The position numbers and the translations under genes are program-made. DNA of 64,000 bases, taken from NCBI GenBank assembly GCA_005772895.1, contig SXIH01000062.1, positions 120,761-184,760 on the forward strand, read 5' to 3'. Shown here in pieces: positions 53,116-62,820 of the stretch (its first letter is position 1; each line of letters opens with the position of its first letter). Under the pieces are notes generated by a model. The model searched no databases and had not been told where the DNA came from. It saw only the letters and a list, made by a program, of their open reading frames with translations. The stretch comes from Bacteroidota bacterium (GTDB taxonomy: Bacteria; Bacteroidota; Bacteroidia; 2-12-FULL-35-15).

Positions 53116-53231
53116 ACCCCAAAAGTGCTATTGATTTATGGATAAATAAAGATTTGTTGATAAAAACTAAAAAAAACTTTATCCATGCAACCAAATAATG
53201 CAACTTTGCATCTATACAACAGAAATCGATT

Positions 53232-53762
53232 ATGACTGATGAGCAAATAGTAAAAGGGTGCATCGATAAGAATGCAATTGCTCAAAAGAACTTGTACGAA
53301 AAATTCTCTCGCAAGATGATGGGTGTATGCCTAAGGTATTGCGACAGTACGGAAGAAGCGGAAGATGTAGTACAAAATGGATTTATAAGTGTATTTGAAA
53401 ATATAGAGTCCTTTAAAGGGACAGGTTCTTTAGAAGGCTGGGTAAGAAAGATAATGGTAAACACAGCGCTAACCAATATCAGAAAAAACAAAAAATTAAA
53501 ACAAAACATTGAGTTGGATAGTGTAGAGTTTATGCTTCCATCCAATATACATACAAACGACAGTTTTGCGACCAAGGATCTTTTAAAGATCATACAATCA
53601 CTACCTGTTGGATTTAAAACAGTTTTTAACCTTTATGCTATTGAGGGCTATTCACACAAAGAGATAGGAGAAATGCTAAACATTTCGGAAGGCACTTCAA
53701 AATCTCAATATTCAAGAGCAAAAGCACACTTACAAAAGATTATACCAATAGAAAGAGAATAA
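53232..53762 (+). CDS. ECF-type RNA polymerase sigma factor
   Basis: EEAEDVVQNGFISVFENIESFKGTGSLEGWVRKIMVNTALTNIRKNKK; sigma4 region YSHKEIGEMLNISEGTSKSQYSRAKAHLQ. Confidence 0.95.
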   Translation: MTDEQIVKGCIDKNAIAQKNLYEKFSRKMMGVCLRYCDSTEEAEDVVQNGFISVFENIESFKGTGSLEGWVRKIMVNTALTNIRKNKKLKQNIELDSVEFMLPSNIHTNDSFATKDLLKIIQSLPVGFKTVFNLYAIEGYSHKEIGEMLNISEGTSKSQYSRAKAHLQKIIPIERE

Positions 53763-53767
53763 ACAAA

Positions 53768-54733
53768 ATGAAGAAAGATAATTTAGAAGATTTATTTAAG
53801 GACTCCTTTGAAAACTTTGAGGCTGACGTTAATCCAAGTGTTTGGAAGAATGTTCAGACAGCAATGAAAGGGGTTGGCTTAGGCTTGTTGGGCAAAATGT
53901 TGCTTAACAAACTAGGTTCTAGTGCGGTTATTTCTATTGTGTCGTCTGCAGCAGCAGTTATTGCTACAGTATTTGTGATGAATGGAACAAAAACAGAAAC
54001 AAAAACAACAGAACCGAAAAAAGAAACTCAGCCTAAAGTTGTTACAGAAGTAGTGAAACCTAGTGTTGATGAAATAAAAACATTTTTAGCTCCGGAAAAA
54101 ATAGAAAAGAAAGAAACTCCGGCTTTAGAAAAGAAAGAAGTTGAACCTAAAAACATAAATGGAGCCATAACAGTTAAGAAAGATAAAAAAGCAATTGAAG
54201 CTTTAATTTCTGATAATCGTATTGCATCTATTTCTTCAAGCTGTGTTGGCGGAACGGTTCCTTTAATTATAAGCCTTTCAAATTTAGGAAGCGGAAAAAT
54301 AAATAAGTGGACATTTAATGATGGAAGCAAACCAATGACAGGTGCAGAGCCAGTGAAATATTTTGATGAGCCGGGTATTTATACAATTACGCTTACTTCA
54401 ACCAGTGCTGACGGAAAAACAGCAGTAGATAGTATTAAGGTAGAAGCATTAGCAAATTCATCAATTTCAACTCCATCAGAATTTACACCTAACGGTGACG
54501 GACAAAATGATTTATTTGTATTTGCCCGCGTGAATGTTGCTAGCTATAATATTACAATTGTAGATAAAGACGCAAATGTTGTTTACGATTATTCTGGAAC
54601 AGATGGAAAGTGGGATGGCAGAACACCAAAAGGGAAAGACGCAAAAGAAGGAACGTATTATTATTTAGTATCTGCAGTTGGTAAGGATGGGAAAACATAT
54701 GAGAAAAAAGGAAAAATTGCTTTAAAAAGATAA
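53768..54733 (+). CDS. Putative membrane-tethered anti-sigma-like protein with PKD and CHU_C-type C-terminus
   Basis: N-term NLEDLFKDSFENFEADVNPSVWKNVQTAM; single TM AVISIVSSAAAVIATVFVM; E/K-rich linker; PKD KWTFNDGSKPM; C-term PSEFTPNGDGQNDLFVFA...GKWDGRTPKG...GTYYYLVSA. Confidence 0.75.
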   Translation: MKKDNLEDLFKDSFENFEADVNPSVWKNVQTAMKGVGLGLLGKMLLNKLGSSAVISIVSSAAAVIATVFVMNGTKTETKTTEPKKETQPKVVTEVVKPSVDEIKTFLAPEKIEKKETPALEKKEVEPKNINGAITVKKDKKAIEALISDNRIASISSSCVGGTVPLIISLSNLGSGKINKWTFNDGSKPMTGAEPVKYFDEPGIYTITLTSTSADGKTAVDSIKVEALANSSISTPSEFTPNGDGQNDLFVFARVNVASYNITIVDKDANVVYDYSGTDGKWDGRTPKGKDAKEGTYYYLVSAVGKDGKTYEKKGKIALKR

Positions 54734-54739
54734 TAAAAA

Positions 54740-54862
54740 TTGGGGCATCGGGAAGAATTTAATTTTGTTTGGTCCAACGTCAAACAAAACAAATTCAAAA
54801 ATATTAATCCTGTTTTTAGCTCTACCACCACTACATACACGATTTTTGTTGCCGGTGTCTCC
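54740..54862 (+). pseudogene. Relic of a CHU-type Ig/PKD-like repeat domain
   Basis: One frame reads LGHREEFNFVWSNVKQNKFKNINPVFSSTTTYTIFVAGVSN, similar to QFVWTPGGTLSNPLIANPVASPSVTTTYTVSGTSQ in the next gene; no start codon or full domain. Confidence 0.4.
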
Positions 54863-54940
54863 AATTTTTTAAAATATTTTGAAACCTGTTGCTACTCCAA
54901 TAGGAATTAAAACAAAAAGGTATCTCAGCCAAATACTGGT

Positions 54941-54971
54941 TTTGATACCGTTTTTGTTTTTTGTATTTTTG
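54941..54971 (+). promoter_or_regulatory. Bacteroidota-type promoter TTTG-N19-TAnnTTTG
   Basis: TTTG 54941-54944; TATTTTTG 54964-54971; ATG at 54998. Confidence 0.65.
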
Positions 54972-54997
54972 CTAAACATTTCAAACTCATCCCTACA

Positions 54998-57900
54998 ATG
55001 AAAAAAATTACACTACTAATTATTTTCTCATTCTGTTTATTGTTTATTAATTCTTCAAAAGCATCGCATATTGCCGGAGGAGATTTAAGCTATACCTGTT
55101 TGGGCGGAAATCAATACCAACTAAACTTAAACTTGTTTGTTGATTGTCTTGGTTTCGATCCAGGAGTTGCGCAAACAATAACTTGTACAAGTACATGCGG
55201 TGGAAGCGTAACGGCAACAGTAAACTGTACAAATCCCGGAGGAACAGAAATTTCTCAATTATGTCCGGCACAAATTGGAAACAGTACATGTAGTGGCGGA
55301 ACATTGCCAGGGATGTGGGTGTTTAATTATACGGGAATTGTTACTCTTGCGCCCCCATGTGATACCTGGAATATGAGCTGGAATGTGTGTTGCAGAAATG
55401 GTGCAATCATCAATCTTGTTACACCCGCAAGCCAGTCATCTTATATTGAAGCAACATTAAATAGTGTTACTGATTCTTGTAATAACTCTCCTTATTTTAC
55501 ATCTCAGCCAATTCCTTATGTGTGTCAAGGACAATTAGTAAATTATAATTATGGTGTTATTGAAGCTGACGGAGACTCATTATATTATTCGCTAATCAAT
55601 GCAATGGGAGCCGGTGCTACAATGTTAGCATACTCACCAGGATATTCTGCATCAGCTCCAATTCCAGGAATAACAATAGATCCGGCAACGGGACTGCTGA
55701 CATTTACACCAATGACACTCGGAAATTTTGTGGTTGTTGTATTGGTACAAGAGTATGACGCTGCAGGAAATCTTATTGGAACAGTTATGCGAGATATTCA
55801 ATTTATTGTACAGACATGTGCCAACCAAGTTCCAGATCCAGCTCCAACAGCGGGATCAATAACAGGTTTAACAGGAACAGCAGTTCTTGCCGGACCGTAT
55901 GAATTAGAAATGTGTGAAGGAGCAACCTTTACTTTTAATGCTGTATATACCGATTCGGATGCTGGAGATTCATTGTCGATTGTTTCAAATATTTTAACAG
56001 TATTGCCCGGAGCAACAATTACTTTTACCGGAACAAATCCTCTAACTGTTACTATCAGCTGGACAGCTCCAGGCGGAAGTGCAGGAACAAATACAAACTT
56101 TAGTGTTACTGTAAACGATGGTGCTTGCCCGGTTATGGGACAACAAACTTTTGTTTACGATGTGAACGTAAACCCCAGAACATTGGGAGGCGGGGATCAA
56201 ATTATTTGTGGCACTCAAACAGCAACACTAAACGGAACTGGTGGAAGTGTATTTAATTGGAGCGTGTTGAGCGGTGACCCAATGGTTGTTGGAACAAACT
56301 TTTCTTGCAATCCTTGCGATAATCCAATAGCTTCTCCATCTGTAACAACAGTATATGAAGTGGTAAGTGATTTAAGTGGAACTTGTGTAAACAGAGATAC
56401 AGTTACCATTACTGTTGTAGCCGATTTTACTTTAACAACAGCACAAAGCGCAACTGCTTCTTGTTTGTTGCAACCAATACAGTTTAATGCAACATCATCA
56501 CCAAGCGGAACATATATTTATTCTTGGTCACCATCAACATATTTGGATGACCCAACTATTTCAAATCCAACCGCTACAATTACCAGCCCTGGAACATATA
56601 CTTACTATGTCCAGATTACCAGTCCGCTTGGGTGTGTAAAAGTAGATACTGCAACAATCGTAATTAACGCGAGTTATCCGCCAAATCCGGTTTCTTATGT
56701 TTCCGATTCTGTTATTTGTGTTGGCGACACGGTTAACCTTGGTGTTACTTTCGGAGCGAGTGTTCCATCTGTTTGTGGAACAAATCCTGTTGGATGTGCA
56801 GCGTCTTTAGTTGCACAAGTTGGAACAGGTGTAACAACAAATACTCCAACAACCTGGCCAGCACCTTATGCGAATTGGTATACATCCGGGAAACATCAAA
56901 TGTTATTCAGAGCAACTGAATTGAATGCAGTTGGAATAACAGGAGGGAAAATAGATCAGATAGAATTTAATGTTTTAGCGATAAACGGTATTTCTTTATA
57001 TCATCAATATACAATCAACATGGGTTGTACAAGTTTAAGTGCACTTACTACATGGGTAACTGGATTGTCAAATGTGTATACTCCAAAAAATTACAACGTT
57101 GTAGTTGGCTGGAACGCACACCCATTTGATGTTGCTTATGAGTGGGATGGAATTTCTAACTTAATTGTTGAAATTTGTTTTAACGAAGGCCCGCCATATC
57201 CAAATTATATTCAAAGTTGTACATCACCATATACTGTTACACCATTTGTTTCATGTTTGTATAATTTTAGTGACTCATCTCCAATGTGTCCGGATTTAGG
57301 TTTTGCGACAGCGATAAGCAATCGTCCTAACATTCGTTTTCAATATTGCGGAGCTGCACCCGATTCTAGTGTATATAGCTATTCTTGGGCTCCAACCGTA
57401 TTTAATCCTACTACTCAAACAACGGGAGCAACGCCACCAAATGGGACAACAACATATTATGTAATTGTTACAGATACGACAAGCGGATGTTTGGATACAG
57501 CCTTTGTGGATGTTTTAGCAAACGTAACGTCTCTTTCTGTTGATGCAGGAGCTAATGATACAATTTGTCCGGGAACACCAACTAACTTAAATGCAACTGG
57601 CGCAACACAATTTGTTTGGACACCAGGCGGAACACTTTCCAATCCTTTAATTGCAAATCCAGTTGCTAGTCCTTCTGTTACAACAACCTACACTGTTTCA
57701 GGAACCAGTCAATGTGCAACAGGTGCAGGTGTTGATAGTGTAACAGTTTTTGTTCCGGTGGTTTCACCGCTCAATGTTACTGCAGGAGCTAATCAGGAAG
57801 TTTGTGTTGGCTCTCCGTATGCTCTTAATTCTAGTAGCAGTGGCGGCTTTGGCGGAAACACTTATACTTGGACATTTGTTTCAGGATATGCCGCTGACAG

Positions 57901-58300
57901 TATTCAAAATGCAAATTCTTCAACAGCTCAGGTGATGCCTACTATGCCATCCACAAATATTTATCAGGTTACTGTAATGGATGCTTGTGGATACATGACT
58001 GTAGATACAGTTGTTGTAGACGTATTATTAGATTGTGATTTAGATATTCCAAACGTGTTTACTCCTAATGGCGATGGGAAGAATGATTTTTTCATGATAT
58101 CATCAAACGGAATAAAAACATTCTCTATCACAATTTATAATCGTTGGGGGACAAAAGTGTTTGAATCAGATGATATTACCAAGAGCTGGGATGGAGGCGA
58201 TTCAAATGATGGAACATACTTCTATATTGTAACTGCAGAATCCATCAACGACAAAAAATACGATGCAAAAGGCTATTTACAGCTTTTGAGAAGCAGATAG
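54998..58300 (+). CDS. Large secreted T9SS type B (CHU_C) protein
   Basis: Signal peptide; repeated ANPVASPSVTTTYTV-type Ig modules; C-term IPNVFTPNGDGKNDFFMISSNGIKTFSITIYNRWGTKVFESDDITKSWDGGDSNDGTYFYIV. Confidence 0.92.
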   Translation: MKKITLLIIFSFCLLFINSSKASHIAGGDLSYTCLGGNQYQLNLNLFVDCLGFDPGVAQTITCTSTCGGSVTATVNCTNPGGTEISQLCPAQIGNSTCSGGTLPGMWVFNYTGIVTLAPPCDTWNMSWNVCCRNGAIINLVTPASQSSYIEATLNSVTDSCNNSPYFTSQPIPYVCQGQLVNYNYGVIEADGDSLYYSLINAMGAGATMLAYSPGYSASAPIPGITIDPATGLLTFTPMTLGNFVVVVLVQEYDAAGNLIGTVMRDIQFIVQTCANQVPDPAPTAGSITGLTGTAVLAGPYELEMCEGATFTFNAVYTDSDAGDSLSIVSNILTVLPGATITFTGTNPLTVTISWTAPGGSAGTNTNFSVTVNDGACPVMGQQTFVYDVNVNPRTLGGGDQIICGTQTATLNGTGGSVFNWSVLSGDPMVVGTNFSCNPCDNPIASPSVTTVYEVVSDLSGTCVNRDTVTITVVADFTLTTAQSATASCLLQPIQFNATSSPSGTYIYSWSPSTYLDDPTISNPTATITSPGTYTYYVQITSPLGCVKVDTATIVINASYPPNPVSYVSDSVICVGDTVNLGVTFGASVPSVCGTNPVGCAASLVAQVGTGVTTNTPTTWPAPYANWYTSGKHQMLFRATELNAVGITGGKIDQIEFNVLAINGISLYHQYTINMGCTSLSALTTWVTGLSNVYTPKNYNVVVGWNAHPFDVAYEWDGISNLIVEICFNEGPPYPNYIQSCTSPYTVTPFVSCLYNFSDSSPMCPDLGFATAISNRPNIRFQYCGAAPDSSVYSYSWAPTVFNPTTQTTGATPPNGTTTYYVIVTDTTSGCLDTAFVDVLANVTSLSVDAGANDTICPGTPTNLNATGATQFVWTPGGTLSNPLIANPVASPSVTTTYTVSGTSQCATGAGVDSVTVFVPVVSPLNVTAGANQEVCVGSPYALNSSSSGGFGGNTYTWTFVSGYAADSIQNANSSTAQVMPTMPSTNIYQVTVMDACGYMTVDTVVVDVLLDCDLDIPNVFTPNGDGKNDFFMISSNGIKTFSITIYNRWGTKVFESDDITKSWDGGDSNDGTYFYIVTAESINDKKYDAKGYLQLLRSR

Positions 58301-61923: not shown

Positions 61924-62820
61924 TTAGACTTTCTCCGCCTTTTTTTCCAAATACTTTTCGTACAATAAATGTACTATTCCATCAGAAAGTCCAATTTGAG
62001 GAACAAGCACTTTTTCTATTTCCGCTTTTTTGAGAACACTAAGTAAAATTTTTGAAGCAGGAATAATCACATCGGCACGATCGGGATTCAAACCAAATAC
62101 TTGCATCCGTTCTTCATATGTATAAGATTCTAATACTTCATATAGGTTTTTAATCTTTAAAGTCGAAATAGTTTTGTTTGGTTTTCTACCAATCATTTTA
62201 AAAAGCTTGTTAATGTTTCCACCCGAGCCAATAGCAATAAGCGGCTTATATCCATCCGTTTGCTCTTTTACCCAATTTTTAAAATAACCCCAATATTCTT
62301 TGTCAATTTGTTCGTGCAACATTCGGATTGTTCCAATATTGAATGATTGAGAAACGACAACTTTATTTTTTGAAAACAAAGTAATTTCTGTACTGCCTCC
62401 ACCAATATCAACATACAAATAATTATTTGCCTTGTCTAAATGTTCTTCAATGTGATTTGAAAAAATAATATCAGCTTCTGTTTTCCCATCTATAATTTCA
62501 ATTTTTATTCCAGCTTCTTTTCTTACACGGGTAACAACATCATAGCCGTTTTCTGCATCGCGCATAGCAGCCGTTGCGCAAGCACGATAATCAACCGCAT
62601 CATAAACATCAATCAAATATTTAAATGCTTTCATTGCAGTAACTAGTTTGTCTGCTTTTTTTGTTGAAATTTTTTTGTTGAGAAACGAGTCTTCTCCCAA
62701 GCGAATTGGCACACGAATTAATTCCGCTTTTTTGTAATACGTCTTGCCTTTGTCTTCATAAACATTACAAAACAATAAACGAACGGCATTTGAACCTATG
62801 TCGATGGCTGCGAATTTCAA
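61924..62820 (-). CDS. ppx: Ppx/GppA family exopolyphosphatase
   Basis: MKFAAIDIGSNAVRLLFCNV, ATAAMRDAENG, YVDIGGGSTEITLF. Confidence 0.92.
   Translation of the reverse strand: MKFAAIDIGSNAVRLLFCNVYEDKGKTYYKKAELIRVPIRLGEDSFLNKKISTKKADKLVTAMKAFKYLIDVYDAVDYRACATAAMRDAENGYDVVTRVRKEAGIKIEIIDGKTEADIIFSNHIEEHLDKANNYLYVDIGGGSTEITLFSKNKVVVSQSFNIGTIRMLHEQIDKEYWGYFKNWVKEQTDGYKPLIAIGSGGNINKLFKMIGRKPNKTISTLKIKNLYEVLESYTYEERMQVFGLNPDRADVIIPASKILLSVLKKAEIEKVLVPQIGLSDGIVHLLYEKYLEKKAEKV

Follow-up and report, generated by a model that had tools for sequence, protein, structure and literature searches.

The Dma proteins of Bacteroides thetaiotaomicron are described as spanning the envelope from the outer membrane to the cytosol and as acting on sigma factors of the extracytoplasmic function (ECF) group ECF21 (PMC13088901; Pardue 2024, cited there). 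A locus of related design lies in a 64,000-nucleotide stretch (the window) of a Bacteroidota bacterium genome (contig SXIH01000062.1 of assembly GCA_005772895.1, positions 120,761 to 184,760, forward strand), where three genes follow one another on the + strand, encoding an ECF sigma factor, a transmembrane (TM) protein with a CHU_C tail (gene 2), and a secreted 1100-aa CHU_C protein (gene 3) (Table 1). We lean toward reading the first two as a predicted sigma/anti-sigma switch that senses the type IX secretion system (T9SS) and controls its cargo, whatever the polarity of the signal. ECF sigma factors with trans-envelope anti-sigma factors are known; what would be new is a T9SS cargo domain as sensor, together with a predicted cargo regulon.

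The Dma family resembles this locus in having the anti-sigma gene beside the ECF sigma gene, in combining a cytosolic domain and a membrane span with a far end directed toward the outer membrane, and in occurring only in Bacteroidota. Gene 2 adjoins its ECF gene across a 5-bp gap and has a head homologous to Dma-like proteins, a single predicted TM segment, and a long linker; it differs in lacking the C-terminal outer-membrane beta-barrel, its tail consisting of PKD and CHU_C domains, and it is not called Dma here. The promoter motif and regulon of the locus point to T9SS cargo, in contrast to the outer-membrane vesicle and polysaccharide utilization locus genes linked to Dma.

In Porphyromonas gingivalis, the T9SS C-terminal domain (CTD) protein PorA feeds the PorXY-SigP pathway, in which an ECF sigma factor acts on T9SS genes; a feedback arising from T9SS function has been suggested (PMC7712824; PMC4800418). 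PorA, however, is a separate exported protein that signals by a two-component route reported only in Porphyromonas, and SigP controls the machinery, whereas in the present locus the predicted anti-sigma factor itself bears a type B domain and the sites lie at cargo genes; no SigP-specific model is among the 25 NCBIfam matches listed. The SM6 promoters of Flavobacterium psychrophilum likewise form an ECF class that includes T9SS component genes and one ECF/anti-sigma pair, but those genes are machinery (GldN, PorU) rather than cargo, and the available portion of the report describes no T9SS-domain anti-sigma factor (PMC9723704).

In FecR/PupR/HasS cell-surface signalling with TonB-dependent transducers, an outer-membrane transport machine reports its own activity to an inner-membrane anti-sigma factor whose periplasmic domain contacts it (PMC11637429; PMC7186176). 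In gene 2 a secretion signal would instead serve as the docking domain, and the machine would be an exporter. No zinc-finger (ZAS) or FecR/DUF4880 domain was found in its product by Pfam and NCBIfam searches with E up to 1, and a Class I (ZAS) or FecR-type identity was rejected because no such domain matched. T9SS type B cargo of the SprB/PG1035 type shares the C-terminal CHU_C/TIGR04131 domain (PMC9143113), and gene 2 differs from it in having no Sec signal peptide but an N-terminal cytosolic head and an internal TM segment. A literature search that covered few subscription papers or preprints found no published CHU_C-tailed anti-sigma factor with a T9SS cargo regulon.

The sigma factor and its CHU_C-tailed partner

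The sigma factor contains regions 2 and 4 only, the arrangement that defines the ECF class (Sigma70_r2, PF04542, 8e-16; Sigma70_r4_2, PF08281, 4e-14), and matches TIGR02937 with 97.8 bits against a cut-off of 42.9; its orthologs are 98-37% identical. The sole hydrophobic segment of the gene 2 product lies at residues ~53-72 (Kyte-Doolittle 2.37) and is preceded by 52 mainly polar residues, with no N-terminal Sec signal peptide; the protein would thus cross the inner membrane once and continue into a long periplasmic linker. Its tail matches PF13585 at residues 235-318 (57 bits, 2.2e-15) and TIGR04131 with 41.5 bits, above the curated cut-off of 35, and so represents a true type B T9SS domain; as in type B cargo, 0 residues follow it. 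In an AlphaFold2 (AF2) model built from 9 sequences, the confidence score (pLDDT) by block was mostly about 65-87 for PKD and about 80-91 for CHU_C. A sequence search of the PDB returned only collagenase PKD and cadherin matches. PorU ranked first in a PDB fold search, with many generic Ig-like proteins among the best matches; this top rank was set aside as special evidence, Ig-like folds being generic.

A profile of the head was searched against 41 relatives and 296 sampled genomes of the class, and the DNA of ~60 loci was read (labels beginning with L and G denote individual loci and genomes). The head is present in 25/25 same-genus genomes among the 41 relatives, mostly as a single copy, and at one or more copies in 122/296 class genomes; among the ~60 loci read, it adjoins an ECF sigma gene in every one with both genes readable. 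In ~50 loci, spread over many families, the partner has a CHU_C end, and the spacing between the sigma gene and the gene for the TM and CHU_C protein is -20 to +48 nt; so many instances argue that the pair is more than a chance association. The CHU_C domain lies 0-5 aa from the C-terminus in 52/52 of these proteins, as it does in exported cargo, and the distance from TM segment to CHU_C is 133-265 aa. Among genus orthologs, mean identity is highest in the head (73% for residues 1-32, consensus NIExLFKxxFxxFEADVxPxVWxNIQ) and lowest in the linker (23% for residues 73-135), with 56% for PKD and 49% for CHU_C.

Weaker head matches fall mostly in ~500-aa proteins whose genes come immediately after ECF genes and which have a TM segment near residue 50, a long linker, and the C-terminal aromatic residue typical of outer-membrane barrels; OMP_b-brl_2 was matched by 3/5 tested barrel-tailed relatives and was found in these relatives only. 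Heads of the CHU_C and barrel types align with a probability of 98% (hhalign, E 3e-13, 36 columns). Since its head is homologous to those of barrel-tailed proteins with the Dma layout (L129-L136), the gene 2 product looks like a Dma-type protein whose barrel has been replaced; the comparison was made with Dma-like barrel proteins rather than with B. thetaiotaomicron Dma1 itself. Gene 2 very probably encodes an anti-sigma factor, judged from sequence, and its head would bind and hold the sigma factor.

The first-pass annotation had placed the three open reading frames, with the 5-bp gap between the sigma stop codon and the start of gene 2, exactly as found here, and had described the cytosol-type N-terminus, internal TM segment, linker, PKD domain, and CHU_C-like end, all of which were recovered, the last as a true type B domain. 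Among the possibilities that it had named as undoing its reading, two can be judged from sequence: the TM segment as a cleaved signal peptide is unlikely given the 52 mainly polar residues ahead of it, and a pair lacking conservation is ruled out by the ~50 loci that keep the sigma gene and its CHU_C partner. Its proposal of an anti-sigma factor with a tethered CHU_C domain gains good support from the conserved pair, the head homology, and the invariably C-terminal CHU_C, all of them sequence features.

Three related arrangements were seen in the survey. Genomes G028 and G039 carry, beside the main type, a second and more divergent CHU_C-tailed ECF partner of 405-422 aa with a tail ending in -IP or -AP (L138, L142). 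In family f16 (L118, L299, L303) a second ECF sigma gene lies directly downstream of the pair. Many Bacteroidia genomes contain an ECF gene followed by a gene for a ~500-aa Dma-like protein (L276 = G000:C39:9783; L129-L137); the Dma layout is thus far from confined to Bacteroides.

A promoter motif shared with T9SS cargo genes

ECF factors usually autoregulate, and the region upstream of the sigma gene contains a conserved motif with the cross-genome consensus TGCAACC-N17-RTCT; on these two grounds the motif is taken as the recognition site of this sigma factor. It occurs exactly, with the same spacing, upstream of the orthologous sigma gene in 39/50 CHU_C-type loci and 2/10 others (p = 9e-4), and the sigma promoter of the window has the highest position weight matrix (PWM) score, 41.8, among the stretches of its own genome that were scanned. 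That genome has a T9SS (SprA match of 2609 bits), 74 CHU_C places, and at least 150 type A places, giving >200 candidate T9SS cargo genes. It holds eight exact sites: one is the promoter of the sigma gene and the only one before an ECF gene, three lie 24-154 bp ahead of genes whose frames end in CHU_C, and one precedes a gene for a secreted protein whose frame ends near a contig end with no recognised tail.

The motif outnumbers its reversed-pattern control 207:25 over 16 genus genomes (28:1 in G003, 24:1 in G004, and 24:1 in G014) and 11:0 in G039, a genome of another family that has the pair; in nine class genomes that lack the head the ratio is 31:18 (p = 3e-5 for the genus against these). 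Association with cargo, defined by a type A or B tail recognised with local hidden Markov models, was assessed in regions of three same-genus genomes (G003, G002, G014) and of G039. T9SS cargo is encoded within the first three genes of 26/39 assessable site-bearing units and 27/171 other units (p = 9e-10), the self-site of G002 being left out (27/40 with it); by genome the site-bearing counts are 15/21, 4/6, 4/8, and 3/4 for G003, G002, G014, and G039, respectively. A weight matrix trained on other genomes alone was then run over the upstream regions of 52 CHU_C genes of the own genome and 57 control regions, from which the promoter of the sigma gene was set aside. Scores of at least 7.7 were reached by 12/52 CHU_C promoters and 0/57 controls (p = 7e-5), and scores of at least 16 by 9/52 and 0/57 (p = 9e-4). 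Because the same site precedes both the sigma gene and cargo genes, a portion of the T9SS cargo genes is probably under the control of this sigma factor. The relevance to the T9SS that the first-pass annotation had proposed from the CHU_C tail thereby gains support from an independent source.

Two further patterns accompany the motif. A close paralogous ECF gene with a 244-aa TM protein (L275 = G000:C54:27008-27544, minus strand) is preceded by GGCAACC-N16-GTCT, and the upstream region of sprA (L268, about nt 58) contains GGCAACT-N16-GTCT; these may mark another circuit, SigP-like and serving the T9SS machinery, whose spacer is one base shorter. Several motif-bearing operons (L146, L161, L175, L178, L179, L330) open with a gene for a small secreted protein (~120-145 aa), followed by one for a giant CHU_C protein to which the small one may be dedicated as a partner.

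A structured RNA and the downstream cargo gene

The 264-bp gap between genes 2 and 3 is more conserved than its surroundings: relative to L021, the locus of an 83%-identical relative, it is 96% identical, compared with 82% for the anti-sigma DNA and 56% for third positions of unchanged four-fold-type codons. The + strand folds with z = -5.0 (54740-54975) and the minus strand with z = -1.8, and an alignment of nine genomes covering the core and the terminator (alignment A8) shows compensatory changes in 13/70 pairs, against 3.6 in shuffles (0/500). Covariance-model matches of 125-150 bits occur only in one sub-clade and always just past the anti-sigma stop codon (6972-7097 in L021), and the RNA starts within about 15 nt of that codon where checked, which marks it as a 3' untranslated region (UTR) element. 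A further match of 55 bits lies inside the coding sequence of a CHU_C cargo gene adjoining the pair in G009 (L339 4085-4212). No Rfam covariance model matched the RNA at 54739-54864 above its gathering score, the best of the chance matches reaching 19 bits (E about 1), and none matched in L021 or L022. The element may be a small RNA derived from the 3' UTR of the sigma operon, and may have been exapted from the coding sequence of a cargo gene; on the model of sigma-E small RNAs, our guess is that it regulates cargo or envelope mRNAs. An automated terminator scan did not match the hairpin that follows, since its loop exceeds the loop length of the scan.

Gene 3 starts behind this RNA and terminator; its product has a signal-peptide-type start and a CHU_C match of 7e-22, in agreement with the 1100-aa CHU_C protein expected from the first-pass annotation. 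That annotation had also grouped all three genes in one cassette, a view that holds in part. Of about 24 genus loci, 14 have a gene for a secreted cargo-type protein next after the pair, as do L308, L309, and L314 of other families (gap of 27-37 bp in L308 and L309). In L021, however, the pair runs directly to ppx on the other strand (ppx is at 61924 in the window), so that gene 3 is not obligatory, and here a terminator precedes gene 3, which has no promoter site of its own (PWM score -6.9). An obligatory three-gene cassette was accordingly rejected on the evidence of L021, partly restored by the 14 loci, and limited again by the terminator and missing site; a linked cargo gene after the pair is a recurrent, optional feature. 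In G197 (L294), the gene that begins 1 bp past the anti-sigma gene encodes a secreted protein of 136 aa with a CHU_C-type motif, a minimal cargo inside the operon.

Table 1. Features of the locus (positions in the window)
Feature	Position	Strand	Basis
Putative autoregulatory ECF promoter, TGCAACC-N17-ATCT, 18 nt before sigma ATG	53186..53213	+	Conservation; PWM
ECF sigma factor, 176 aa, regions 2 and 4	53232..53762	+	Pfam/NCBIfam; orthologs
Predicted anti-sigma factor, 321 aa, with a TM segment and a tail of PKD and T9SS type B (CHU_C) domains	53768..54733	+	Domains; conservation
Putative cytosolic anti-sigma head, residues 1-36	53768..53875	+	Ortholog conservation; hhalign with heads of barrel-tailed partners
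Single TM segment, residues 53-72	53924..53983	+	Hydropathy; orthologs start TM at about 49-63
Variable periplasmic linker, K/E/T/S/P-rich, residues 73-156	53984..54235	+	Low identity; variable length
PKD domain, residues 157-224	54236..54439	+	Pfam PKD_4 1.1e-9; AF2
T9SS type B C-terminal domain, CHU_C, residues 235-321	54470..54730	+	PF13585; TIGR04131; AF2
Conserved structured RNA core, 3' UTR of anti-sigma gene	54739..54864	+	Folding z; covariation; model matches
Intrinsic-terminator-type hairpin GGTATC...GATACC then T-rich, closing the transcript of the pair before gene 3	54910..54959	+	Fold; alignment (helix 6)
Secreted T9SS cargo protein with CHU_C, 1100 aa; linked to the pair but not obligatory	54998..58300	+	Domain match; neighbourhood comparison

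Proposed mechanism, alternatives, and meaning

In the mechanism that we propose, the head would retain the sigma factor at the inner membrane, and the TM segment and long disordered linker would place the PKD and type B domains in the periplasm. When extended, the linker could bridge the periplasm to outer-membrane parts of the T9SS, either the SprA translocon or PorP/SprF-type barrels; type B CTDs are known to bind the latter (PMC9143113). The tail would thus have a T9SS partner in the outer membrane and act as a tethered cargo mimic reporting the availability of such parts, and the chances are slightly in favor of the T9SS being sensed through it. A free T9SS receptor would let the tail engage, so that the anti-sigma factor is pulled or exposed and the sigma factor freed to act at TGCAACC-N17-RTCT promoters, transcribing its own operon together with many T9SS cargo genes; receptors saturated by cargo would displace the tail and leave the sigma factor bound, and cargo synthesis would track secretion capacity. 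This polarity, chosen because it yields sensible homeostasis, is itself doubtful, and the opposite polarity or a surface-anchored, Dma-like sensor are possible alternatives. The complete picture, a secretion-capacity feedback circuit across much of Bacteroidia together with a 3' UTR RNA resembling cargo-domain coding sequence in one sub-clade, is offered tentatively, at somewhat less than even chances.

Several observations weigh against a T9SS-sensing cargo switch. The AF2 model gives the head a pLDDT <50 and supports the folded PKD-CHU_C part alone; the linker is Lys-rich on the periplasmic side also, leaving the positive-inside rule unclear; and no clear PKD domain is seen in L044 and L087. 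Three of the eight exact sites in the own genome lie inside genes, only about a quarter of its CHU_C genes have a site, and the cargo association in G014 alone has p = 0.08. The motif, moreover, belongs to an ECF subfamily, being carried by two other pairs (L134, L141), and another sigma factor could read some of the sites.

The alternative that survives best, although unlikely, is a dual-membrane surface sensor, whose CHU_C tail would be exported by the T9SS and fixed on a PorP-like surface barrel, giving a Dma-like span of both membranes; it would read an outside ligand or mechanical strain, and the T9SS would merely deliver it. The head shared with barrel-tailed proteins and a linker long enough to cross the periplasm (133-265 aa) suit this arrangement, as do the anchoring of type B CTDs on PorP-like proteins (PMC9143113) and the Dma layout (PMC13088901). 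The predicted regulon, however, is made up of T9SS cargo and not of a single class of nutrient or stress genes, a composition that fits a signal from the T9SS. Passage of an inner-membrane-anchored protein through the T9SS translocon would also, to our knowledge, be without precedent.

It is rather improbable that the protein is a plain periplasmic adhesion or envelope sensor, with PKD and CHU_C serving as Ig-like binding modules that make no contact with the T9SS and the sigma factor released by general envelope stress and regulated proteolysis. Such a sensor would follow classic RseA/FecR-type logic, both domains are Ig-like, and generic Ig-like proteins stand beside PorU among the PDB fold matches; but CHU_C invariably comes last in the chain (52/52), its score exceeds the cut-off for T9SS sorting domains, and the motif of the sigma factor is found ahead of T9SS cargo genes. 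A little less probable again is a true but mostly self-controlling switch, with another ECF factor of the same subfamily as the main reader of the TGCAACC sites at cargo genes. The genome has 19 ECF genes, three of them close to the profile of this sigma factor, and besides the two non-CHU_C pairs with the motif there is a related site, at N17, in the promoter of the L276 paralog; against this, the best-scoring promoter of the own genome and its sole exact site at an ECF gene are those of the sigma factor studied here, and motif enrichment follows the pair across genomes. That gene 2 encodes ordinary T9SS-exported cargo beside a sigma gene by chance is very improbable and was rejected: its type B domain is genuine, but it has a TM segment at residue 53 in place of a Sec signal, belongs to ~50 conserved pairs, and shares its head with other ECF partners.

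A T9SS-sensing switch of this kind bears on how Bacteroidota fit the amount of T9SS cargo to export capacity, a question that the cargo-domain sensor, the readable promoter motif, and the predicted regulon make experimentally testable. The motif also offers a handle on T9SS cargo regulons in genomes that have not yet been studied. If the proposal is true, Dma-like anti-sigma heads would form a modular platform on which outer-membrane-facing sensors have been swapped.

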